Below, piece after piece: positions 10,246 through 35,652 of a stretch of DNA of 64,000 bases (its first letter is position 1; each line of letters starts with the position of its first letter). Source of the stretch: a virus; the IMG/VR virus record IMGVR_UViG_3300028920_000056, positions 25,629 to 89,628 of that record. The stretch is one strand, 5' to 3'. The position numbers and the translations under genes are program-made. Under the pieces are notes generated by a model, which saw nothing but the letters and a program-made list of their open reading frames with translations, was not told the DNA's origin and did not search any database.

Positions 10246-10590
10246 ATGCATTTAAATCACAAAGAAAAAGTCGCTTATAGACATACTAAAGTATGGAAAG
10301 AAAAGCGACTAGCTGTGTTGAAGCGAGATGGTAACATTTGCCAATTATGTAATAGGAAATTAAGTTCAAAAAAATTACATGTCCACCATATAGATGAGGA
10401 TAAATACAAAGACATTGATGAGATTGAATATTTAGTAACTTTATGTAAAGCTTGTCATCGTCAATTTATCGAAAGATGGATAGTAAAATTAAGAAGTAAA
10501 TCATATAAACCAAATAAATATACTTTGCTTATTGAGCAAATAGTTAAAGAGTTTACGGTTGAATTAGATAGAGAGAAAACAAATGGCTAG
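10246..10590 (+). CDS. HNH endonuclease
   Basis: 114 residues with a complete HNH core: C32/C35 and C67/C70 zinc pairs, the HVHHID catalytic block (H45-D50) and CKACH at the end. This is the fold of phage HNH nucleases and homing endonucleases that nick or cut DNA. It overlaps the portal start by eight bases and therefore sits immediately beside a gene that carries an intein. It may be a free-standing homing nuclease or a packaging-associated HNH protein, as known beside terminases in other phages. The family is clear, the exact role is not. Confidence 0.85.
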   Translation: MHLNHKEKVAYRHTKVWKEKRLAVLKRDGNICQLCNRKLSSKKLHVHHIDEDKYKDIDEIEYLVTLCKACHRQFIERWIVKLRSKSYKPNKYTLLIEQIVKEFTVELDREKTNG

Positions 10591-13500
10591 AAGAAAAAAT
10601 TCAGTAAACATTTCGCAAAGAGCTGCTGTCATACAAAGTTTTTTTAATAAAATCAATGTAACAAAAATACAAGATTTAGTAAGTGGACAACAGAATGTTG
10701 GAACTGAAAATACTTTTAGTATGCAGCGTAGTTCTTTTGAGAGCATTACTTCTATAGATCAAAGTAGAGTACAAAGATATCGTGAATATGAACAGATGTG
10801 TTATGTTCCAGAACTTAATGGTGGTTTAGAAATATATGCCGATGATGCTTCATTATATAATACAAATGATGAAGTAATTGAGTCTCTTTCCGACAATAAT
10901 GAGATAGCTGATAATTTGAGCGACTTATGGTTTAAAGCGTTAGATATGAATGCTAATCTTTGGCACATTATTTATAACACTTGTAAATATGGTGACGCTT
11001 TTTATGAAGTAATACCTGATGATTATACAAACCCTAAACGATTAAAATACATGAGATATATACCTCCCCAATATGTTACTAGAGAAGAGAAAGATGGTAA
11101 TTTAATACAATTTATTGTAAGAATTCCTGCTGAAGACACAAGAAGTAGTAATTATTCATATTATGCAAATGACCAAAATAGTGAAGAAGTTTTTTTAAAA
11201 CCATGGCAAATTGTTCATTTTAAATTAGATGACAAAGAATTTGAACCATATGGAAAATCTGTTTTAGAAACAGGTAGATTAGCATTTAAACAAATGAAAT
11301 TAGTTGAAGATGCTATGTTAATCTACAGAATAACTAGAGCCCCTGAGAGAAGAATATTCACTATACCAGTTGGTAACCTTCCATTTAGAGAAGCAATGAG
11401 AAAAGTAGAAGATTTTAAACAAAGATATAGAAAAACTCCATGGATTGATCCATTAACAGGTGAAATCAATTATAAAGCAAATCCTATGTGTTTAACTATG
11501 GACACTAAGATTGATTTATTAGATGGCAGGACTTTAGAACTACAAGAAATCATAAAGGAATTCGAAGAAGGCAAGGAGCTTTGGACTTATTCAATAGATC
11601 GCGAAAATGACAATCAAATAGTTCCAGGAAAAATCGAGTGGGCAGGACCAACTCGAAAAAATGCCGAGCTAGTAGAAGTATTTATAGACAACGAAAAATC
11701 TATACGATGTACACCAGATCATAAATTCTTGTTAAGAAATGGTGAATATAAAGAGGCCCAGTACCTAAAAGCAGGTGATTCTTTGATGCCTAAGTACACA
11801 AAAGAATCTTCTAAGGGTTATGAAATGGTGTATAATCCTAAAACTAGGAAATATATTCCAACTTATATGGTAGTTGCTAGACACACTCAAGAGAAAAAGT
11901 GGAACAGAAGATGGACCAAAAGAACAATACATCACAAAGATTTTAATAAAATAAATAATAATCCAGACAATCTTTTGATATTAGAAAATAAAGATCATGT
12001 AGGATTACATGGAGAATTAAGTAAAAGAAATTGGTCTAATCCAAAATATAGAAAAAAGCAATATGAGTCTAGGGTAAAAGCTTGGAGAAATAGTTCAGAC
12101 GAGAGAAGAAAGCTACAATCAGAATTAATAACTAAATATAATAAAAGCGAAAAGCATAAAAGAGTTACTATAAGTAGAAATAAAAGAATTTGGTCAGACG
12201 AGAAAACAAAAGAAAAAATATCTGCTAATATGAGAAAACCAAAATCTACTACTGAAAACATGAAGATTAAATTCGGTGAAAAATTTTGGTCTTTTATTGA
12301 TAACGCTATTATAAAATTACAAGAACAAAACAAAGTAGTTGAATATCTAAACTCAAACAAAGAATTTATATTTCATTTCAAAACTTTAACGCCAAGAAAC
12401 AACGAGTCTATTCACAGACACTTGTTAACTAAAGCTTTTAGACAAAAAGGTTATGACGGTTTTGAAGATTATAAGTATACCTTAATTGACGATAATAGAT
12501 TGTCATATGAAGATATTAAAGACGATCATGAAAATGGTTTGAGTCAAAAAAAGATTGCTAATAAATTTGATGTTTCAAGATCGGTTATCAAAAAGTTGCT
12601 CAGAAGAAATCATAAAGTTGTAAAAGTTGTTCGCTTAAATGAACGAGAAGATACAGGCTGTATTACTGTTGCAAAATACCACAACTTTGCAATATCAGAT
12701 ATCATCGTGAGAAATTCTATCAACGATGATTTCTTTTTTCCTAGAAGACCAGATGGTAGTGGTCCAGCAGTTGAAACTTTACCAGGTGGTATGCAATTAA
12801 GTGAAATAGATGATGCAAGATTTTTTAAAGAAAAAATTCTTAGAACTATGAGAATTCCGCTTGCTTATTTAACTGGAGAAATGACAGGTGATGTCGCAAA
12901 GACTTCATTATCTGCTATGGATACTAATTTTGCTAAAACTATAGAAAGAATTCAAAAGCAGATTATAAAAAGTTTAGAAAAAATAGCGATAATTGAATTA
13001 GCATTTAAACGTTTTACAATAGAAGATTTACATGATTTTAGATTAAATCTAACAGTTCCATCAAAGATTTATGAAATGCAAGAGTTAGAGACGTTTAATG
13101 CAAAATTGAGTGCTATTCAATCAGCAATAGCACTAGCCGACGTAGAAACAAATAAACCATTTTTACCAAGAGAATGGTTATATAAAAATATAATGAAATT
13201 TAATGAAGAAGAAATATCAACTATTAAGCTTATGCAACAAGCTGAAATGGCAGAAAAAGAGGAAGATAAAGCAAGAGCAGAAGCTACTGCCGGAGGCGAA
13301 ATGGGTGGAGGTATGATGCCAGGAGGAGGTATGCCACTAGGTGGTGGTATGCCACTAGGTGGTGAACTTGGAGCTGGTGAAATGGGAGCTGGCGAAATGG
13401 GAGCCGGTGAAATGGGAGCTCTAGAGGTTGCGCCAGGCGGCCCGGCTGCTGCTGGTGGTGAAGCTGGATTAGAAATAGCAAGTAAAATAATTAAAATAGC

Positions 13501-13717
13501 CGGAAGAGAATTTTTAGTTGAAAATGAGAATGATATTAGAGAAATAATAAAATTTGTTAAAGAATTCAAAGAAAACCAAAAGAACGCTAAAGATAACTTT
13601 AGAAAGAGGTCTAAGAAAAAGTTGTATGAAAATAAGTTTGATTTACTTTTCATCCAAGGTGAATTTAAAGGCCTCATAAGACGTGTGAAAAAGAACAAAA
13701 ATATGCTGAAAGATTAA
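10583..13717 (+). CDS. gp20: Portal protein gp20-like, interrupted by intein
   Basis: 1044 residues, made of an N-extein (1-302), an intein (303-711) and a C-extein (712-1044). The joined exteins (about 635 residues) match a T4-type portal: the dodecameric ring at the packaging vertex. Recognisable parts are YEQMCYVPELNGGLEIYADDAS near residue 70, KPWQIVHFKLDD, and after the intein the NDDFFFPRRPDGSG...ETLPGG block typical of gp20. The C-terminus carries a Gly/Met-rich low-complexity tract (residues about 905-960). The intein sits at the start of the highly conserved FFFPRR block. Confidence 0.92.
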   Translation: MARRKNSVNISQRAAVIQSFFNKINVTKIQDLVSGQQNVGTENTFSMQRSSFESITSIDQSRVQRYREYEQMCYVPELNGGLEIYADDASLYNTNDEVIESLSDNNEIADNLSDLWFKALDMNANLWHIIYNTCKYGDAFYEVIPDDYTNPKRLKYMRYIPPQYVTREEKDGNLIQFIVRIPAEDTRSSNYSYYANDQNSEEVFLKPWQIVHFKLDDKEFEPYGKSVLETGRLAFKQMKLVEDAMLIYRITRAPERRIFTIPVGNLPFREAMRKVEDFKQRYRKTPWIDPLTGEINYKANPMCLTMDTKIDLLDGRTLELQEIIKEFEEGKELWTYSIDRENDNQIVPGKIEWAGPTRKNAELVEVFIDNEKSIRCTPDHKFLLRNGEYKEAQYLKAGDSLMPKYTKESSKGYEMVYNPKTRKYIPTYMVVARHTQEKKWNRRWTKRTIHHKDFNKINNNPDNLLILENKDHVGLHGELSKRNWSNPKYRKKQYESRVKAWRNSSDERRKLQSELITKYNKSEKHKRVTISRNKRIWSDEKTKEKISANMRKPKSTTENMKIKFGEKFWSFIDNAIIKLQEQNKVVEYLNSNKEFIFHFKTLTPRNNESIHRHLLTKAFRQKGYDGFEDYKYTLIDDNRLSYEDIKDDHENGLSQKKIANKFDVSRSVIKKLLRRNHKVVKVVRLNEREDTGCITVAKYHNFAISDIIVRNSINDDFFFPRRPDGSGPAVETLPGGMQLSEIDDARFFKEKILRTMRIPLAYLTGEMTGDVAKTSLSAMDTNFAKTIERIQKQIIKSLEKIAIIELAFKRFTIEDLHDFRLNLTVPSKIYEMQELETFNAKLSAIQSAIALADVETNKPFLPREWLYKNIMKFNEEEISTIKLMQQAEMAEKEEDKARAEATAGGEMGGGMMPGGGMPLGGGMPLGGELGAGEMGAGEMGAGEMGALEVAPGGPAAAGGEAGLEIASKIIKIAGREFLVENENDIREIIKFVKEFKENQKNAKDNFRKRSKKKLYENKFDLLFIQGEFKGLIRRVKKNKNMLKD
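11489..12715 (+). other. Intein with HNH homing endonuclease in portal
   Basis: 409 residues from C303 to N711 of the portal frame, followed by Ser as the first C-extein residue. Splicing motifs are present: block A CLTMDTKI, block B TPDHKF, and a C-terminal DTGC...KYHNFAISDIIVRN ending in Asn before Ser. The middle has an HNH-type nuclease (IHHKDFNKINNNPDNLLILE...H...H), followed by basic DNA-binding repeats (NWSNPKYRKKQYES, then IWSDEKTKEKIS) of the kind found in intron- and intein-encoded HNH nucleases. It should therefore be able both to splice and to home. Confidence 0.92.
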
Positions 13718-25229: not shown

Positions 25230-25237
25230 CATAATTG
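25230..25237 (+). promoter_or_regulatory. CATAATTG box, divergent partner
   Basis: GCATAATTG begins 14 bases before ATG 25244 and lies back to back with the minus-strand box, making a compact divergent control region. Confidence 0.35.
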
Positions 25238-25243
25238 ATTAAA

Positions 25244-25525
25244 ATGAATAAAAAAGAAACAACTAAAAAATTATTAAAAGATCAGACATGTGACTCATGT
25301 ATATACAGATGGAGTAGTGTTGGTAAATATCATTGCACTTCAAAAAATATGAAAAATAACACATGTAAACGCTATATAAATGATAGAGGACTAAGTGAAG
25401 AAGCTTATAACAAAATGCAAGAAATGAGAATGAGAGTAAGACTAGAAATAGAAAAATCATTAGAAGAAACTATAAAGTTAAATAGAGAAATAAGGAGTGG
25501 CAAATGGGATTACTCAAAAAAATAA
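25244..25525 (+). CDS. Cys-rich LLKD-family protein
   Basis: ATG 25244 is preferred over TTG 25235; no SD but a box upstream. KKETTKKLLKDQTCDSC...C...CKRY is the four-cysteine signature, followed by a helical charged tail of about 45 residues. It overlaps the next paralogue by 22 bases. First of four such genes in a row. Confidence 0.6.
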   Translation: MNKKETTKKLLKDQTCDSCIYRWSSVGKYHCTSKNMKNNTCKRYINDRGLSEEAYNKMQEMRMRVRLEIEKSLEETIKLNREIRSGKWDYSKK

Positions 25526-25683
25526 CTAAGCGACTATTAAAAGATCAGACATGTGATGACTGTTTTTGGTTTTGGAATCCATACAATTGGAGACATGTTC
25601 CCGGAGGTTTTTGCTGTTGGAAACATGTTAGACCCACAGAAGAAGGATGTTCTTCATGGAAAAAGAGAGAACAAAGAAAATAG
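25504..25683 (+). CDS. Cys-rich LLKD-family protein (59 residues)
   Basis: Short but clearly paralogous: ITKRLLKDQTCDDC, then CCWK and a final CSSW. AGGAG lies in the preceding gene at a usable distance. It consists of the Cys domain alone, which suggests that domain is the functional core of the family. Confidence 0.6.
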   Translation: MGLLKKITKRLLKDQTCDDCFWFWNPYNWRHVPGGFCCWKHVRPTEEGCSSWKKREQRK

Positions 25684-25823
25684 TTATTAATTTACTTAAA
25701 GAAAAAACATGTGATAATTGTGTGTGGAAAAATGAGCATACAACATCTTGGTGTGGAATACAAGGAAATAAGCCGTCAGCCGGAACATGTATATTTTGGA
25801 GAATGTGGTTACCAGAGAGATGA
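25656..25823 (+). CDS. Cys-rich LLKD-family protein (55 residues)
   Basis: Overlaps the preceding copy by 28 bases in another frame. KIVINLLKEKTCDNC...WC...TCIFW keeps the spacing CDxC - C - C-x2-W. Its stop makes the ATGA overlap with the next copy. Confidence 0.6.
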   Translation: MEKERTKKIVINLLKEKTCDNCVWKNEHTTSWCGIQGNKPSAGTCIFWRMWLPER

Positions 25824-25996
25824 TTAGCATGAATGAGTCACAAGAAGAAAGAAGAGAAAGAACTAAAAGATTGTTACATGATGCATCATGTGATAATTGT
25901 ATCTATCGTTTTAAAGCCCCTCATTATTGGAACTGTAGTTTTTACCGTGATAGACCAATGAAAAATTTGTGCATAAATTGGTCTCTCCAAAGATAG
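25820..25996 (+). CDS. Cys-rich LLKD-family protein (58 residues)
   Basis: ATG 25820 overlaps the preceding TGA (ATGA); a second ATG at 25829 is possible. RTKRLLHDASCDNC...NC...LCINW is the family pattern. Last member of the run; a TTCGACA promoter-like element begins two bases after its stop. Confidence 0.6.
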   Translation: MISMNESQEERRERTKRLLHDASCDNCIYRFKAPHYWNCSFYRDRPMKNLCINWSLQR

Positions 25997-26036: not shown

Positions 26037-26537
26037 ATGACAAAGACCCCACATGATAATAATTATATTTCTAATTCATTTCAAAATCGTATAGAAGTTA
26101 ATTTAGCTAATATAAGTCGCTCAAAAGATGATAAATTTATATTATTAGGTGTTCATTATATAATAAAGGGATTTAAATGTGAATTATGCAAACACCGTGA
26201 TTGTTTATATGCTTATACCATAAAAAATGTAGAAACTAATGCTGATATGGTAGTTGGCAGCGAATGTATTAAGCATTTTAAAGCTAAGGGTTGTAACATT
26301 GATTTAGCAGCTGGTCTAAAGAAAAGAGTTAAAAGCATCACAAGAAAAATGAAGCGTTATATGAAAAAATATTTAGACAAAGATGGTTATAAAGAAATGT
26401 CAGTAGAACAGAAGAGAGAGCTCACTGCTAAATTATTTGTTAAACAACAATTGAAAGAACAACTCAGAGGTGAAAGCAAAAAGAAAGTAATGTTATCAGA
26501 AGATGAAGTGTTAAAAATTCTTAAATATGAAGAATAG
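26037..26537 (+). CDS. Zinc-binding basic protein
   Basis: 166 residues. The N-terminal half has FKCELCKHRDC...VVGSECIKHF, with cysteines spaced as for a zinc site. The C-terminal half is a long Lys-rich helical region, giving a nucleic-acid-binding look. Strong AGGAGG SD and its own promoter-like element, of the type that also drives the RtcB and PARP genes. Function unknown; RNA binding is a guess from charge and zinc site. Confidence 0.65.
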   Translation: MTKTPHDNNYISNSFQNRIEVNLANISRSKDDKFILLGVHYIIKGFKCELCKHRDCLYAYTIKNVETNADMVVGSECIKHFKAKGCNIDLAAGLKKRVKSITRKMKRYMKKYLDKDGYKEMSVEQKRELTAKLFVKQQLKEQLRGESKKKVMLSEDEVLKILKYEE

Positions 26538-26539
26538 TT

Positions 26540-26800
26540 ATGGTTGTTGAACACTATTCACAAATTAAACTTAATAAGCTTTATTATTTTTGGTTTACTG
26601 CACAACCTACTAAAAGTGCATATATTATATTTCGTGAATTTGAAAAAGAAACGTATATTTTTTATGTAGAAGTTTATGATGATAACAATGGCAAATATAA
26701 TACTTTAGTCCCAATTGAAGTAATTAGCAAGGGACAACTTATAGAAGTAGTAGATGACAAGTTTAAACTTAAGTTGGCCCTTAAGGGTTTGACAGAATGA
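26540..26800 (+). CDS. Tandem relay family A, member 1
   Basis: 86 residues. The N-terminus is beta-rich and aromatic (KLNKLYYFWFTAQPT), like a small barrel, and the C-terminus is KLKLALKGLTE. The tail codons give AAGGG as SD and ATGA as start/stop overlap for member 2. It is the most divergent copy and heads an array of eight genes plus one remnant. Function unknown. Confidence 0.6.
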   Translation: MVVEHYSQIKLNKLYYFWFTAQPTKSAYIIFREFEKETYIFYVEVYDDNNGKYNTLVPIEVISKGQLIEVVDDKFKLKLALKGLTE

Positions 26801-27033
26801 AATTTGAAGATTTAAAAGTAGATATATTATATGTTGCTGATTATGATGGGCACTATCTCTATTTTATACCACGTAAACTACTCAGGGGTCAATTTTGGAG
26901 TATTAGTATGATTGACCATCAAAAGAATGTTGTTAGCTCGATGTTACATATAGATGTTTTTATGAAAGCAACTTCTGTGAGGAAAGCAACAAAAAAAGAA
27001 ATTACTACTCTAAGCTTGAAAGGGTTGTTGTGA
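26797..27033 (+). CDS. Tandem relay family A, member 2
   Basis: 78 residues, starting MKFEDLKVDILYVADYDGHYLYF and ending TTLSLKGLL. The tail sequence TTGAAAGGGTTGTTGTGA contains the SD and the GTGA overlap used by member 3. Confidence 0.6.
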   Translation: MKFEDLKVDILYVADYDGHYLYFIPRKLLRGQFWSISMIDHQKNVVSSMLHIDVFMKATSVRKATKKEITTLSLKGLL

Positions 27034-27287
27034 ACATAAAAATAAATTTTGAAGACTTAGAAGTTAATCATTTATATTGTTATGAGTGTGTTGATAATAA
27101 TTATCATTATAAAGGAGTTAGCAAATATTTTATAGTTCTTAAAAAGTTTATACGCAAAGAGAGTCATTTAGTAAGATGGTATAATGGTATGGGTGAAATA
27201 CATTATCAAGCATTATTCTCGGGATTTTTTCGTGAAGTTAAAGATATAAAAGAAAAGACTAAATTGATGCTGAAAGGATTGTTGTGA
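27030..27287 (+). CDS. Tandem relay family A, member 3
   Basis: GTG start within the preceding stop. 85 residues, with N-terminal FEDLEVNHLYCYECVD parallel to member 2 and the tail KLMLKGLL, whose codons (CTGAAAGGATTGTTGTGA) relay translation to member 4. Confidence 0.6.
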   Translation: MNIKINFEDLEVNHLYCYECVDNNYHYKGVSKYFIVLKKFIRKESHLVRWYNGMGEIHYQALFSGFFREVKDIKEKTKLMLKGLL

Positions 27288-27532
27288 GATTAAACGTAGA
27301 TGACTATTTGTTAGTAAGATATGGAGACCCTCGCAAAACATCATTTTTTTTAGTTACAAATCGCAGTGCAGCAGATGACAATGTCGTTTTTGGAATATAT
27401 ATGTCGACAGATAGAGTAATCAATGTTAATGCAGCAATCTCTATTTATGCAATTGAAAGAAGTGACATATTTGTTAGTAAAATAACAAATAAAAAACTTA
27501 TTACTAAACTACAACTAAGAGGTTTAGTATGA
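27284..27532 (+). CDS. Tandem relay family A, member 4
   Basis: GTG start. 82 residues, N-terminal MRLNVDDYLLVRYGDP and tail LITKLQLRGLV. Its last 30 bases are identical to those of member 5 (repeat 27503-27534 / 27787-27818). Confidence 0.6.
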   Translation: MRLNVDDYLLVRYGDPRKTSFFLVTNRSAADDNVVFGIYMSTDRVINVNAAISIYAIERSDIFVSKITNKKLITKLQLRGLV

Positions 27533-27534
27533 CA
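27503..27534 (+). repeat. 32-base direct repeat, copy 1 (copy 2 at 27787-27818)
   Basis: Identical 32-base segments cover the tail codons, the AGAGG SD, the ATGA junction and the first codon of the next gene in members 4/5 and 5/6. Looser versions end members 6, 7 and 8. Such a repeat could mediate recombination that adds or removes whole genes. Confidence 0.85.
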
Positions 27535-27816
27535 GAACTAGAAAAAGCAGTAAATACAAAGATTGGAGATTATTTAAAAATAGTAAACATTCCTAAATCT
27601 TTAAAGAGTGAATTATATTTTCTAGTTACTGAAATATATCCCGCTAAACCAACAACTAAAAACTTTATAAAACTTAGTGGAACTATGTTGTTAGAAGATG
27701 GCGACCTTGTAAATTTAGATTTGGCTGCTAGTTTTTTTGAAAAGAATTTTTTACGAATATTTCCAATAACTAAACAAACTTTAATAACTAAACTACAACT
27801 AAGAGGTTTAGTATGA
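27529..27816 (+). CDS. Tandem relay family A, member 5
   Basis: 95 residues; the body differs strongly from member 4 while the tail LITKLQLRGLV is identical at DNA level. This contrast shows that the ending is exchanged or conserved independently of the body. Confidence 0.6.
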   Translation: MTELEKAVNTKIGDYLKIVNIPKSLKSELYFLVTEIYPAKPTTKNFIKLSGTMLLEDGDLVNLDLAASFFEKNFLRIFPITKQTLITKLQLRGLV

Positions 27817-28052
27817 CAATATTTGACGATCTTAATGAAGAAGTTTATACAATACTAGATTCTGATGAAGAACTTAAAGGGCCCTTTTATTTAATAAAAA
27901 GAAAAGACACACATTTTTATTTTGGATCACTACTTACACTAAATAATAAAATTGAGCATGATATTGCAATACGAATAGATGGAAATATTGTTGTCAAAAA
28001 AATAATTAATAATAAGCTCATAACTAAACTTAAACTGAAAGGATTGGTATGA
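27813..28052 (+). CDS. Tandem relay family A, member 6
   Basis: 79 residues with a GPFYLIKRKDTHFYFGS strand pair and the tail LITKLKLKGLV. The embedded AAAGGA SD precedes the ATGA overlap with member 7. Confidence 0.6.
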   Translation: MTIFDDLNEEVYTILDSDEELKGPFYLIKRKDTHFYFGSLLTLNNKIEHDIAIRIDGNIVVKKIINNKLITKLKLKGLV

Positions 28053-28306
28053 TTAAAGGTGAGATTAAAATAAACGATTATCTTTATATTGATGACGATT
28101 TAGGAAGAAAATATTATTTAAAAGTTTCAAAATATCATTATCGTGAAGACACAGGTGAAATTTTTCTAATTAATGGAATAGGATATAATATTAAATATGA
28201 AAAATCAATTATAACTTTGTCCTTATGGATTAATGGAGACGCAACTGTAACTATCATAACCAATCTTAAACAAATAACTAAACTTAAACTGAAAGGAATA
28301 ATATGA
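28049..28306 (+). CDS. Tandem relay family A, member 7
   Basis: 85 residues with N-terminal IKINDYLYIDDDLGRKYYL, matching the family's D/N-x-Y-L-hydrophobic opening, and the tail ITKLKLKGII. It relays through AAAGGAATAATATGA. Confidence 0.6.
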   Translation: MIKGEIKINDYLYIDDDLGRKYYLKVSKYHYREDTGEIFLINGIGYNIKYEKSIITLSLWINGDATVTIITNLKQITKLKLKGII

Positions 28307-28572
28307 AGCCATTACAACTCAATGGATATTATATGTATCGAGTAACTTATAAAGAGTTTCATTATATTAATTATTTCTATATTTGTCATATTGTTTCTAT
28401 CCCTCCGGCACATTACATAATTAATATACTTACTCATAACATAATTAAAAATACAATAGTACTAAACGAACATTCACCATTTTCACATAGTTGGTTTGAA
28501 CGAAATATTACTAACTTAAAAAGGATAAATGATAATAAACTTATAACAAAACTGAAACTAAGAGGATTATGA
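28303..28572 (+). CDS. Tandem relay family A, member 8
   Basis: 89 residues, Tyr/His/Ile-rich body, tail LITKLKLRGL. The last intact member; its relay leads into a broken segment rather than a full gene. Confidence 0.6.
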   Translation: MKPLQLNGYYMYRVTYKEFHYINYFYICHIVSIPPAHYIINILTHNIIKNTIVLNEHSPFSHSWFERNITNLKRINDNKLITKLKLRGL

Positions 28573-28610
28573 TATGATTAAAATAATTTTAGAGATGTGG
28601 CCACATGGTT

Positions 28611-28709
28611 ATGAAAAATAAGTACAAGCTATGCGAAGGTAGAATCGGAAACGATAAAAAAATAATAACAAAATTAAACTTACTTGGACTTTTTTCTTTA
28701 AACTCATAA
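28611..28709 (+). pseudogene. Truncated ninth member of relay family A
   Basis: A 32-codon frame (MKNKYKLCEGRIGN...) ends KIITKLNLLGLFSLNS, retaining the family tail but lacking the barrel-like body. A separate 15-codon frame precedes it (28574). The structure is that of a gene reduced to its tail by deletion. Confidence 0.5.
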
Positions 28710-28761: not shown

Positions 28762-29079
28762 ATGGGAAAAATAAAACCGGGCCTATCTATAGATGAAGAA
28801 ATCTGGAAACAATTTAAAGAAAAGTTTAGTTCTAATGCATCTAAAAAAGCAGAAGAATTATTCAAAGAAGCACTAGAAATAGAAATACCAAATATTTTAA
28901 ATGCATGTGAAATTAATAGTGTAACTATACCAAACAGTTCTGAATGGAGTTTTAAATATTCAGAAGGATCAATAAATTTAGATCATAATGTTTCATATTC
29001 TTGCGTAGATAATGGCAGTGATTTTGCAGATATAACTAGCTCATATACAACAGATTTAAAAGATATTATAATTGAGTAA
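28762..29079 (+). CDS. Ribbon-helix-helix DNA-binding protein
   Basis: 105 residues. The N-terminal 45 (KPGLSIDEEIWKQFKEKF...ASKKAEELFKEALE) have the strand-helix-helix layout of Arc/MetJ-type repressors, which dimerise and insert a beta ribbon into the major groove. The remaining 60 residues are Ser/Asn/Asp-rich beta and may bind a ligand or partner. A GGAG SD lies upstream. Paired palindromes directly upstream suggest autoregulation. Alternatively it is an antitoxin-like protein, but no toxin partner is evident. Confidence 0.65.
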   Translation: MGKIKPGLSIDEEIWKQFKEKFSSNASKKAEELFKEALEIEIPNILNACEINSVTIPNSSEWSFKYSEGSINLDHNVSYSCVDNGSDFADITSSYTTDLKDIIIE

Positions 29080-29089
29080 GGAGGTTATT

Positions 29090-29569
29090 ATGAGTGTTGG
29101 GGAACCAGATTTAACTTTAAATAATATTACTATTACCACAGAACATACAAGTTGGCCATATGTTACTAACGAAATATATTCAACTGGCACATATTACCCA
29201 TATTTTGATCATATTTGGATAGGTGACCCATTACCAGAAAAGTGGGAGCCTTTACCTGGATGTGTTCCATGGGATGGTCCACTTGTTAATGAAAACAAAT
29301 TACCAAACAATGTTGAAGAAATTTTAGAACAATTAAAAATACATATGGAGGGAAATAAAATGACTATGAATATTTATGAGGTTTTAGTAATAGATCGCAA
29401 AGAATGCACAGTTCTAACAAAGCAAGATAACATTATTGCTAAAGATGAAAAATCTGCAATGTTAGAACTTGACCTTAGCAAAGAAATTAAAGCTAAAGTT
29501 AAAAAGGACGAAATCGTATTTATCTTTACTAAAAAAGGCTCATTTGAGAAACTAGAAGATAAAGAATAA
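29090..29569 (+). CDS. Hypothetical two-part protein with internal start
   Basis: ATG 29090 has AAGGAGG upstream. 159 residues. The N-terminal 90 are rich in Trp, Tyr and Pro (DHIWIGDPLPEKWEPLPGCVP). The last 70 (MTMNIYEVLVIDRKECTVL...) look like a complete small alpha/beta domain. GGAGGG stands eight bases before the internal ATG at 29360, so the C-terminal domain may also be made alone. It ends at an intrinsic terminator. Function unknown. Confidence 0.6.
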   Translation: MSVGEPDLTLNNITITTEHTSWPYVTNEIYSTGTYYPYFDHIWIGDPLPEKWEPLPGCVPWDGPLVNENKLPNNVEEILEQLKIHMEGNKMTMNIYEVLVIDRKECTVLTKQDNIIAKDEKSAMLELDLSKEIKAKVKKDEIVFIFTKKGSFEKLEDKE

Positions 29570-29824: not shown

Positions 29825-29865
29825 AATATTATTATAAGTTGATAAAGGTAATATTTAATGACTAG
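29821..29865 (+). pseudogene. Minigene: family-B tail only
   Basis: A 14-codon frame, MKYYYKLIKVIFND, that is essentially the family start plus the tail. Its AAAGG and ATG serve the next gene (29858). It looks like a module collapsed by deletion to its translation-relay part. Confidence 0.45.
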
Positions 29866-30430
29866 AGAGCAAATAAAGAAAAAATTAAATTTAAGTAGTA
29901 TTGGCGATTTTCTTGAAGGCAGAGCTTGGGTCCAGAAAAATGGTAAATTTGGTCATGTTGACAAAAATGGCAATATTACAACGCCAATAGTTTATGATGA
30001 CGTTGGCAATTTCAAAGAAGGCAGAACTTGGGTTGAGAAAAATGGTAAATGCGGTCATGTTGATCTAAATAGTAAAGTAACAACGCCTATAATTTATGAT
30101 AACGTTGGCAATTTCAAAGAAGGCAGAGCTCGAGTTAAGAAAAATGGTAAATGGGGTCATGTTGATAAAAATGGCAATATAACAACGCCTATAATCTATG
30201 ATGATGTTGGCTCTTTCCAAGAAGGCAAAGCTTGGGTCCAGAAAAACAATAAATATGGCCATGTTGATCTAAATGGCAAAGTGACAACGCCAATAATTTA
30301 TGACGATATTGGTTATTTCCAAGAAGGCAAAGGATGGGCGGAAATTAACAAAGTATATATTGATATAAATAAAAATGGTATACCAATTAAACATAAAGAT
30401 TTTTATAATTTAATAAAAGGATTATTCTAA
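29858..30430 (+). CDS. WG-repeat protein
   Basis: 190 residues with five tandem copies of a roughly 31-residue WG/KWG repeat: F-x-E-G-R/K-A-W-V-x-K-N-G-K-x-G-H-V-D-x-N-G, then x-T-T-P-I-I-Y-D-D-V-G. These repeats form beta-sheet surfaces and occur in bacterial proteins that bind partners or cell surfaces. The final 10 residues, FYNLIKGLF, are the phage's relay-type tail and supply AAAGGA for the next gene, so an unrelated domain has acquired that tail. Cytoplasmic (no signal peptide). Function unknown. Confidence 0.8.
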   Translation: MTREQIKKKLNLSSIGDFLEGRAWVQKNGKFGHVDKNGNITTPIVYDDVGNFKEGRTWVEKNGKCGHVDLNSKVTTPIIYDNVGNFKEGRARVKKNGKWGHVDKNGNITTPIIYDDVGSFQEGKAWVQKNNKYGHVDLNGKVTTPIIYDDIGYFQEGKGWAEINKVYIDINKNGIPIKHKDFYNLIKGLF

Positions 30431-32679: not shown

Positions 32680-33086
32680 GATTTTTAGAAGAAATGATTG
32701 GAATTGAAGAGAAAAAATTATTTAGAAAACTACTCCAAAGATATGGTTCATACATAAGAGATGTAGAAACTGTTGACTATATTCCAGGTATTAAGCCACT
32801 TTTTATTTTTCATTGGCTTGCAGAACACAAATATGTTATGTGCAGAAAGTGGCATATTGATTTAAATCAATCTCAATCAGGATTTAATATTTATGTGCCA
32901 AAATTTTATGACTTGTTGGAGAAAAAATGGTTCGGTGGAATGTATTTTACATCAGCCGCAGTTGTTAATAATAAAACGACATTTAAAAAAATATTAAATT
33001 ATTTAGCTGATGGAAATGTTGAAGAGGCAAACAAATTGTTTTATAAACCCAGACGAATAATAAGGAATATATTTAATGAAAGATAA
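32676..33086 (+). CDS. Hypothetical protein with family-B tail
   Basis: GTG start overlapping the remnant's stop. 136 residues, larger than its neighbours, with an aromatic, helical body (KPLFIFHWLAEHKYVMCRKWHIDL) that is not the small barrel. The tail RRIIRNIFNER encodes AAGGAATATATTTAATG, the SD and start of the next gene. Confidence 0.6.
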   Translation: MRFLEEMIGIEEKKLFRKLLQRYGSYIRDVETVDYIPGIKPLFIFHWLAEHKYVMCRKWHIDLNQSQSGFNIYVPKFYDLLEKKWFGGMYFTSAAVVNNKTTFKKILNYLADGNVEEANKLFYKPRRIIRNIFNER

Positions 33087-33375
33087 TGAAATAGTAGTAG
33101 GCGATTTATTATATTATCTCGATCGAGATAATATGAATTTTAATTATCTTTATTGTCGAGCTATTAATAAAAATAAATTATACTTTATACAATTTAAATT
33201 CTTAGTGAATATAAAAAAGTTAATTATTAGAGAAAGATATATCCTGACTAGAGTTGAGTGGAACGACAAACATCTTATTTTTAAATATTTCATAAAAGAT
33301 GATGAAGCTAAGCACCAACTAGTTGAGCGTATTTTTAAAGTGGAAATAGAAGATATAAGGTATTTTGATAAATGA
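33076..33375 (+). CDS. Small family-B protein
   Basis: 99 residues opening EIVVGDLLYYLDRDN (barrel-like start) with a family segment HQLVERIFKVE near residue 82 and a short extension whose codons (ATAAGGT) form the next SD. Confidence 0.6.
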   Translation: MKDNEIVVGDLLYYLDRDNMNFNYLYCRAINKNKLYFIQFKFLVNIKKLIIRERYILTRVEWNDKHLIFKYFIKDDEAKHQLVERIFKVEIEDIRYFDK

Positions 33376-33659
33376 AATATTTTGTAGTTGTACCAAATTT
33401 AAAGCCTCAAGTTATAATCTTTTTTGAATTTATAAAAGAATTGTCAGAAGCTCATAAATATCGTATAGGAAGACGGTGGTATACTAAAAAGATAGTAAAA
33501 TATAAAGCACGAGAAAATGGTGTCTATTTTGAAATACATATCTACTCACTTATTAAACGAGAGTCTGGCTATAAATTTATAAGACCACCAATAAATGGAG
33601 AAATATTTGATTCATTTTCAAAAGCAGCTAGATATCTTATTGTTAGGTTGTTTAAATAA
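33372..33659 (+). CDS. Small family-B protein (tail LIVRLFK)
   Basis: 95 residues, basic, ending ARYLIVRLFK; ATGA overlap upstream and TAATG junction downstream. The tail codons contain TTAGGT as a possible SD. Confidence 0.6.
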   Translation: MKYFVVVPNLKPQVIIFFEFIKELSEAHKYRIGRRWYTKKIVKYKARENGVYFEIHIYSLIKRESGYKFIRPPINGEIFDSFSKAARYLIVRLFK

Positions 33660-33896
33660 TGAAAAATGGAATTTGGTATGAAATAGATCAAAAAAACTTT
33701 TTTAGTATCGCACACCAGTATTAATACATTTTTCTAATGAAAGATAAAGTGTTTGGATTTGATTGGCCTTCTAATAAATTTAGAACATATTCTAGAGCAG
33801 CATTAGAACCTGTATCAAAAGGGTTCAATATGGACTAAAATAGGTACTGACCTTATAAGTAGAGAATTAATAAAATTTATATTTGGATGTAGGTAA
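33660..33896 (+). pseudogene. Decayed family-B gene
   Basis: Broken pieces in order: MKNGIWYEIDQKNFFSI (stop 33723-33725), a second frame MKDKVFGFDWPSNKF..., and in a third frame the intact tail ISRELIKFIFGCR ending at 33896, with TAGGT as SD for ATG 33899. At least two frameshifts separate them. Confidence 0.5.
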
Positions 33897-33898
33897 AC

Positions 33899-34165
33899 AT
33901 GACATTTAAAGAACTAAAATCTGGAATGATTCTATATGACTCTATTGGAGAAAAAATAATGTTTATTATTAATGTTAAGAATGAGAATACAACTGTTGAA
34001 TATGTGAGTGCACTTATTTTTTCTCCAATTATAACTACTTTAACATCTTATTTTATTGACATAATAACATGGCATGATCGTTATAGCAAAAGCTGCAAGC
34101 TTGCCACAAGTAAACAACTAAGAAAAGAAATAATGAAAATGTATGGGGCAACAACAAGTGATTAA
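33899..34165 (+). CDS. Small family-B protein
   Basis: 88 residues opening FKELKSGMILYDSIGEKIMFI, the clearest example of the family's N-terminal barrel motif, and ending KQLRKEIMKMYGATTSD. Function unknown. Confidence 0.6.
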   Translation: MTFKELKSGMILYDSIGEKIMFIINVKNENTTVEYVSALIFSPIITTLTSYFIDIITWHDRYSKSCKLATSKQLRKEIMKMYGATTSD

Positions 34166-34448
34166 GTTTAAAGAAGTAAAAAGAGGGATGTTTTTATGGC
34201 ACATACTTGATGATGAATATACTGCATATTTTTATGTCCAAGAAAAATCAACCGAAGGAGTTACTGGATTATGGGTTATATATAATACTTCAGATCGTAT
34301 ATTTGTTTATATACCAAATAGATTCTTCTCGAAGCGAACTTTTAGTATAAAATTAGATAAATGGAGTATTTTGTGGCGCATGAAATTGCAAGAAAGAAAA
34401 CACTTGTTCAGAATTATTTTTGATGCAAAAGAGTTTCATAAAGAATAA
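34158..34448 (+). CDS. Small family-B protein (tail LFRIIFDAK)
   Basis: GTG 34158 gives MIKFKEVKRGMFLWHIL, which aligns with the preceding paralogue; ATG 34143 would add five residues. About 96 residues ending KHLFRIIFDAKEFHKE. Confidence 0.6.
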   Translation: MIKFKEVKRGMFLWHILDDEYTAYFYVQEKSTEGVTGLWVIYNTSDRIFVYIPNRFFSKRTFSIKLDKWSILWRMKLQERKHLFRIIFDAKEFHKE

Positions 34449-35359: not shown

Positions 35360-35367
35360 GATAATCA
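35360..35367 (+). promoter_or_regulatory. GATAATCA box before 35371
   Basis: GCGAAAGATAATCATATATG runs straight into the ATG at 35371; no SD. It closely matches the sequence before 4143. Confidence 0.4.
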
Positions 35368-35370
35368 TAT

Positions 35371-35652
35371 ATGAGATTTAACGAAGTAAATAGTTCCGAA
35401 ATGTTATTTTGCACATATACTAATGTAGATATTTTTTCTTACATTATTAATAAATATAAAGGTAGTTGTGATTTATTAATAATAAAATTTTGGGATAACA
35501 TGTCTAAAGTATATGTAGTTAGACTCAGCAGTATTTCTAAAGTAGTTTTTGATAGTAAAAAATATATTTATATTAGAACACACAAAATCAATAAAAAAGT
35601 TTTATTTCAAAAAATATTTAGTAAAAAATGGAAGTATGTAGATGAGCGATAA
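35371..35652 (+). CDS. Small family-B protein (tail LFQKIFSKK)
   Basis: 93 residues, beginning MRFNEVNSSEMLFCTY and ending NKKVLFQKIFSKKWKYVDER. Candidate leaderless gene. Its last codons (TGGAAG) lie before the ATG of the neck-type gene at 35642, which it overlaps by 11 bases. Confidence 0.6.
   Translation: MRFNEVNSSEMLFCTYTNVDIFSYIINKYKGSCDLLIIKFWDNMSKVYVVRLSSISKVVFDSKKYIYIRTHKINKKVLFQKIFSKKWKYVDER

Follow-up and report, generated by a model that had tools for sequence, protein, structure and literature searches.

Introduction

Intragenic Shine-Dalgarno (SD) sequences are found at most overlapping gene pairs in most prokaryote groups, and in E. coli removal of the SD lowered reinitiation in four of the five overlapping pairs tested (PMC6728339). 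The ATGA/TGATG pairs of that study resemble the phage locus analyzed here in having a 4 nt overlap and an SD that lies in the upstream gene, at its 3′ end. The phage array differs in that its SD lies within the conserved peptide of a paralogous family, so that each duplicate carries its own relay site, through which translation would be coupled.

A second, tentative point of reference is the SPO1-type host-takeover cluster of myoviruses, which comprises 26 genes (PMC6873191). Compared by description, the array is likewise a dense run of small unnamed phage genes. The SPO1 takeover genes are mostly not related to each other, whereas all members of the array appear to belong to one family. The open-licence literature that we searched contained general work on overlaps and described no array of this form.

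We analyzed a 64,000 nt stretch of DNA (the window) corresponding to bases 25,629–89,628 of the record of an uncultured virus (89.6 kb). The results given below on homology, synteny, variation in copy number, the predicted helix, SD energies, and codon choice were all computed in this study. We conclude that the array is a phage gene family in tandem whose intragenic ribosome sites are ordinary, and that it is made somewhat special by the position of the site within a conserved helix, as predicted by modeling.

The Array and Its Setting

The window virus is a distant T4-like myovirus, as judged by its genes for terminase, portal, maturation protease, major head protein, Ad2 adaptor, and tail sheath. 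Its MCP lies far out among those of T4-like phages, and the best match in phage records (37%) belongs to a 595-kb uncultured phage, from whose MCP region the array is absent.

The original prediction described eight small genes and a truncated ninth that share an L-K/R-G-L/I ending, and the open reading frames, overlaps, and tails that we found match this description. The array consists of eight ORFs of 78–95 codons on the + strand (26540–28572) and the remnant of a broken ninth. W1 (26540–26800, 86 aa, tail KLALKGLTE) and W2 (26797–27033, 78 aa, tail TTLSLKGLL) are followed by two genes with GTG start codons, W3 (27030–27287, 85 aa, tail TKLMLKGLL) and W4 (27284–27532, 82 aa, tail TKLQLRGLV), and then by W5 (27529–27816, 95 aa, tail TKLQLRGLV), W6 (27813–28052, 79 aa, tail TKLKLKGLV), W7 (28049–28306, 85 aa, tail TKLKLKGII), and W8 (28303–28572, 89 aa, tail TKLKLRGL). 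The TGA stop codon of W8 does not overlap the next ATG, at 28574. From there the ninth copy (28574–28709, + strand) comprises a 15-codon ORF and then a C-terminal remnant (28605–28709) that ends IITKLNLLGLFSLNS (...IITKLNLLGLF) and has no K/R-G.

The protein bodies have diverged, with 16–27% identity to W1, and the predicted C-terminal helix is kept, which bears out the claim that the bodies differ strongly while the ends stay similar. The tail pattern exceeds chance: [LIVMF][KR]G[LIVMF] lies within the last eight residues of all eight array genes, as compared with 1 of the 83 other window genes, whose 17,606 residues contain it 12 times in all.

The left anchor of the locus is the upstream neighbor (26037–26537, + strand), which encodes a Cys-rich protein with 52%–57% identity in relatives. 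The right anchor is formed by two small genes 3′ of the array (28762–29569, + strand) whose homologs lie just after the array in relatives. A search of phage records gave no match for the array DNA or for the protein of the left-anchor gene, a PHROG and phage-record search of the array region likewise gave none, and the anchor gene was not found in bacterial genomes. A promoter and terminator scan of the 25–30 kb region of the window gave signal at chance level.

Two further features of the locus were noted. The homologs of the right-anchor genes are on the − strand in L005, L007, L008, L010, L011, L012, L013, and L014 (relatives are designated by L numbers), and the strand switch is a block inversion or re-insertion in the window lineage. 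Upstream of the array lies a second tandem family (25235–25996) of four small Cys-motif proteins in overlapping frames, which carry LLKDQTCDSCIYRW, LLKDQTCDDCFWFW, LLKEKTCDNCVWKN, and LLHDASCDNCIYRF; this site holds one similar ORF in L005 and similar ORFs in L010.

Array Junctions Carry Intragenic SD Sites

Stop and start codons overlap by 4 nt at all seven junctions between intact copies (ATGA at five, GTGA at two), and the K/R-G codons at these junctions read AAGGG once, AAAGG four times, and AGAGG twice. On the + strand, W2 is preceded by AAGGG within W1 (26783–26787) at a spacing of 9 nt. The other six sites all have a spacing of 6 nt: AAAGG within W2 for W3 (27019–27023) and within W3 for W4 (27273–27277), AGAGG within W4 for W5 (27518–27522) and within W5 for W6 (27802–27806), and AAAGG within W6 for W7 (28038–28042) and within W7 for W8 (28292–28296). 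The originally described spacing of 5–6 bases before RTGA fits six junctions; it is longer at W1>W2, because W1 has one extra residue there (tail LKGLTE).

Anti-SD duplex energies at the array junctions range from −4.5 to −6.8 kcal/mol, as compared with a median of −4.6 for other gene starts and −1.0 for random sites; the strength of the array SDs is typical to good for this phage. The anatomy of overlap coupling (a start codon overlapping the stop codon, and an SD at workable spacing inside the upstream coding sequence) was found at all seven junctions. From this anatomy and from work on other organisms, we infer that translation is coupled along the array.

A codon preference was also observed at the array tails (26540–28572). 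The Leu before K/R-G is never TTA (0 of 8), although TTA makes up about half of all Leu codons here and 59% of the Leu codons before Lys, and three of the eight are the rare CTG (about 2%). The SD is no explanation for this bias, which perhaps reflects shared descent.

Array Proteins Probably Share Ancestry beyond the Tail

In an alignment of the family, the members have in common an N-terminal pattern (L....LYxV......YFxV) and a C-terminal one ((K)KExTKxxLKGL). Among sequences outside its own set, an HMM built from the relatives alone recovered seven of the eight array genes: W1, the best window match (E = 1.5e-4), W3 (E = 0.01), W2 (E = 0.022), W4 (E = 0.029), W8, W7, and W6. Conversely, an HMM built from the window genes alone detected L018-1 (E = 1.5e-5), L022-2 (E = 1.6e-5), L022-1 (E = 1.4e-4), and L014 (E = 0.0066) among 1,595 ORFs. 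When the tails were removed, body-only profiles linked the window genes and the relatives weakly (best E values 0.036–0.15). As this body-only signal is marginal, the tail accounts for much of what links the lineages.

AlphaFold models were obtained for W5 (pLDDT 82, pTM 0.71) and for the single copy in L014 (pLDDT 87) from shallow input alignments of 19–20 diverse sequences. The two proteins are 21% identical, and both are predicted to contain four main strands, a helix, a short strand, and a C-terminal helix; the W5 model has one extra short helix at the N terminus. The C-terminal helix spans residues 83–91 in W5 (block pLDDT 91–95) and residues 77–85 in L014 (pLDDT about 92). The array tail is thus confidently modeled as the best-predicted helix of the fold, and its conserved Gly, which falls at the predicted helix end, presumably serves as a helix C-cap. 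Structure prediction of the bodies had been suggested as a check of the original prediction; the two models share the order of main elements, with the tail as the final helix.

One alternative, which we consider improbable, is convergence: unrelated small genes would have acquired the same ending because K-G codons serve well as an SD where stop and start overlap. The weakness of body-only homology across lineages is consistent with convergence, and all four other window genes with K/R-G in their last six residues, including the repeat protein at 29858–30430 (NLIKGLF), precede a nearby start. Against it, whole-protein profiles and shared synteny point to one family, the N-terminal pattern LxxxxLYxV...YFxV is common to the members, two distant members share the predicted order of main elements, and the KExT..L portion of the tail plays no part in the SD. 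Whole-length cross-detection and the same predicted element order argue that the array members share ancestry beyond the tail.

The family is without a named relative in the sequence libraries searched. No member scored above the cut-off or with a convincing E value in Pfam, PHROG, NCBIfam, or PADLOC; scattered weak matches each involved one member only, the best having E values of 0.0013 (PADLOC) and 0.005 (Pfam). A solved-structure profile search of the family returned only chance matches (E at least 0.66). In structure comparisons of the predicted barrel, the best VIA Z scores (6.6 and 6.4) were within the background for unmatched models, and Foldseek E values for predicted models were at least 2e-3, inside the tool's stated noise. 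The predicted models may resemble FeoA, the CarD N-terminal domain, the UvrD C-terminal Tudor domain, and unnamed phage proteins of about 80 residues in BFVD in being small curled beta barrels, with no sequence link to any of these.

A second cluster of overlapping small genes follows the Ad2 gene, both in the window (33064–34448 and 35365–35652) and in relatives (L007, 10706–12170; L010, 10840–12438). Many of its genes start GxxYxV...YF and end in a helix-like [IV][KR]xIF. The body-only window HMM matched one ORF of this cluster in L007 (10706–11071, E = 8e-5), and a profile-profile comparison of the array with the cluster gave a weak signal (P = 0.038, as compared with 0.78 for reversed sequences). 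The cluster possibly belongs to the same superfamily as the array.

Copy Number Varies at One Syntenic Site

We located the same site in uncultured viral contigs through the anchor genes. A search of viral contigs for the exact tail DNA pattern found none, and a relative was not found with the single array protein W6 as query. Alignments of the array and of the small anchor proved too poorly conserved to serve as queries. Between the same anchors there are no copies in L013 and L017, one in L007, L010, L012, and L014, two in L005 and L018, four in L021/L022, and eight in the window. A count of gene number in related phages, which had been suggested as a check, thus gives 0, 1, 2, 4, and 8 copies at one syntenic site, in keeping with a variable module. 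Some sites carry other genes, in addition to the copies or in their place; named by eye, these include a phosphoesterase-like ORF in L012 and a response-regulator-like ORF in L013.

The tails of the two copies are IIAALRGLYENSDY and EVTMTLLLGL in L005, and EITKAILKGISI and EITMCLLKDLI in L018. Those of L022 are ERTKVALKGLI..., EKTMVGLRGLMP, EKTLIALKTGLS..., and EDLQSCIKSIF...; this fourth tail and that of the L012 copy are degenerate. In L005, L018, and the window, the SD is present in the inner copies and has been lost from the last one, which has no K/R-G (LLLGL in L005, LKDL in L018, and LNLLGL in the window remnant). The third copy of L022 (LKTGL) fits less neatly, in that a gene follows and yet there is almost no SD (−0.9).

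The single copies in L010 and L014 are followed by no co-oriented gene. L010 has the tail EKTILNLKGLF, in which K-G is written AAA GGC. L014 has the tail EHTKSALRGLI, in which Arg is written CGC, and therefore no SD is left.

The first array genes of L022 (6522–6842) and L012 (7970–8257) have no ATG, GTG, or TTG at the expected place; their translation may begin at a non-standard codon (ATT?) or be coupled to that of the gene upstream.

Protein Constraint and the Ribosome Site

The original prediction held that the ending is partly kept as a translation relay. In its strongest form, this would make the relay the chief reason for keeping the shared ending, and the protein tail a by-product of it. 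The tail SD serves every one of the seven inner junctions, and the K/R-G is lost in the last members of L005, L018, and the window, as a relay would have it. The single copies speak against it: L010 and L014 keep the tail with no gene after, and L014 keeps the peptide SALRGLI with an SD destroyed by CGC, the kind of tail that the original prediction had named as telling against it. Moreover, KExT.. and the spaced Leu are conserved outside K/R-G, where they have no SD role.

We also compared codons. Over the 28 pairs of window tails, identical residues are written with identical codons in 100 of 216 cases, with 103 expected from codon usage. Tail codons thus differ freely, and the codon-level conservation that had been suggested as a check is no higher than codon usage predicts. 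The same comparison bears on the possibility that recombination or gene conversion takes place at the tail DNA, homogenizing gene ends and letting bodies swap. The adjacent pairs W4/W5 and W6/W7 share codons at 8 of 10 and 9 of 10 identical residues, respectively, as such exchange might produce. However, both are neighboring copies, as simple duplication would leave, and the match between observed and expected identity over all pairs makes homogenization very unlikely. We rejected DNA-level conservation of the tails on the same grounds.

Any K-G dipeptide has to be encoded by an SD-like AARGG, so the protein sequence alone accounts for most of the SD. The twelve inner tails nevertheless have a summed SD energy of −71.0, stronger than the −59.9 ± 4.3 obtained by synonymous recoding, with P about 0.004 for the full set, about 0.011 for the window tails, and 0.064 for those of the relatives, and the four last or only copies have a weaker SD energy than their recodings (−9.6 versus −17.5 ± 2.8, P = 0.004); these tests rest on 12 and 4 tails with an energy window chosen in the present analysis, and the P values are indicative only because the tails are related to one another. 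At 35 other overlapping junctions in these phages, the SD energy is −163.5, as compared with −105.4 ± 8.9 for synonymous recodings. Ordinary overlapping genes are more strongly codon-tuned, and the device used in the array is therefore standard; unrelated endings at other overlaps give equal or stronger SDs.

The relay as the main cause of the tail is largely refuted by L010 and L014, and we regard it as very unlikely. The tail, as judged from the alignments and models, is mainly a conserved protein helix rather than mainly a translation relay. What stands of the original claim is that tails carry the SD of the next gene, and a weaker relay survives in that inner copies use codons that give somewhat stronger SDs than random synonymous ones; what is not supported is the view that the tail is kept for the sake of the relay.

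A Proposed Origin of the Array

We consider it probable (roughly 80%) that the array arose by lineage-specific tandem expansion of a fast-diverging accessory gene whose conserved helix doubles as a portable intragenic SD. One ancestral small accessory gene would have been duplicated in tandem in an uncultured T4-like myovirus. The predicted fold of each product (about 80–95 residues) is a small beta barrel of SH3/Tudor-like type, which an amphipathic helix, (K)KExTKxxLK/RGL, closes at the C terminus; the glycine sits at the end of this helix. The bodies would have diverged fast while the helix stayed, and we propose that it was kept because it is part of the fold or of a binding surface. Since the only codons for Lys-Gly are AARGGN, and Arg-Gly is mostly AGAGGN, an SD-like site precedes the stop codon of almost every copy. 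These codons lie so close to the stop that ribosomes finishing one copy could go on to read the next, and the SD together with the ATGA/GTGA overlaps would allow termination-reinitiation from copy to copy. Inner copies would be mildly codon-tuned for this relay, and last copies, once released, would tend to lose the site.

A stronger version, in which the helix is truly dual-purpose, is conceivable but doubtful. Joint selection on the K/R-G codons would mean that unequal crossing-over between tails adds or removes genes and leaves translation unbroken, and portability would drive both the expansion and the loss of the site in last copies. As for function, the array proteins may, with low confidence, be diversified accessory binders of host or other targets, a candidate role that fits their rapid divergence, their dispensability (two relatives have no copies), and their small barrel shape.

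Under the tandem-expansion reading, the array is a small phage protein family, not represented in the libraries searched, with 0–8 tandem copies at one site. It offers a clean natural test of dual coding, as three lineages (L005, L018, and the window) have lost the SD from their last copy and retain it in the inner ones, and L014 separates protein from RNA constraint within one short motif by keeping the peptide while its codons abolish the SD. It is also a warning that a ribosome site embedded in a shared ending does not by itself mean that the ending arose as a translation signal.

Other Features of the Window

Two other genes of the window were noted. The repeat protein encoded at 29858–30430 has WG-type repeats (KNGKWGHVDKNGN...), and AAAGGA in its ending precedes the next ATG; the gene is unrelated to the array and uses the same ending-as-SD solution. 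The portal-like ORF at 10583–13717 (1044 aa) contains an HNH endonuclease-like stretch (approximately residues 404–586) after its portal-like part, which is likely an intein or an inserted homing endonuclease.
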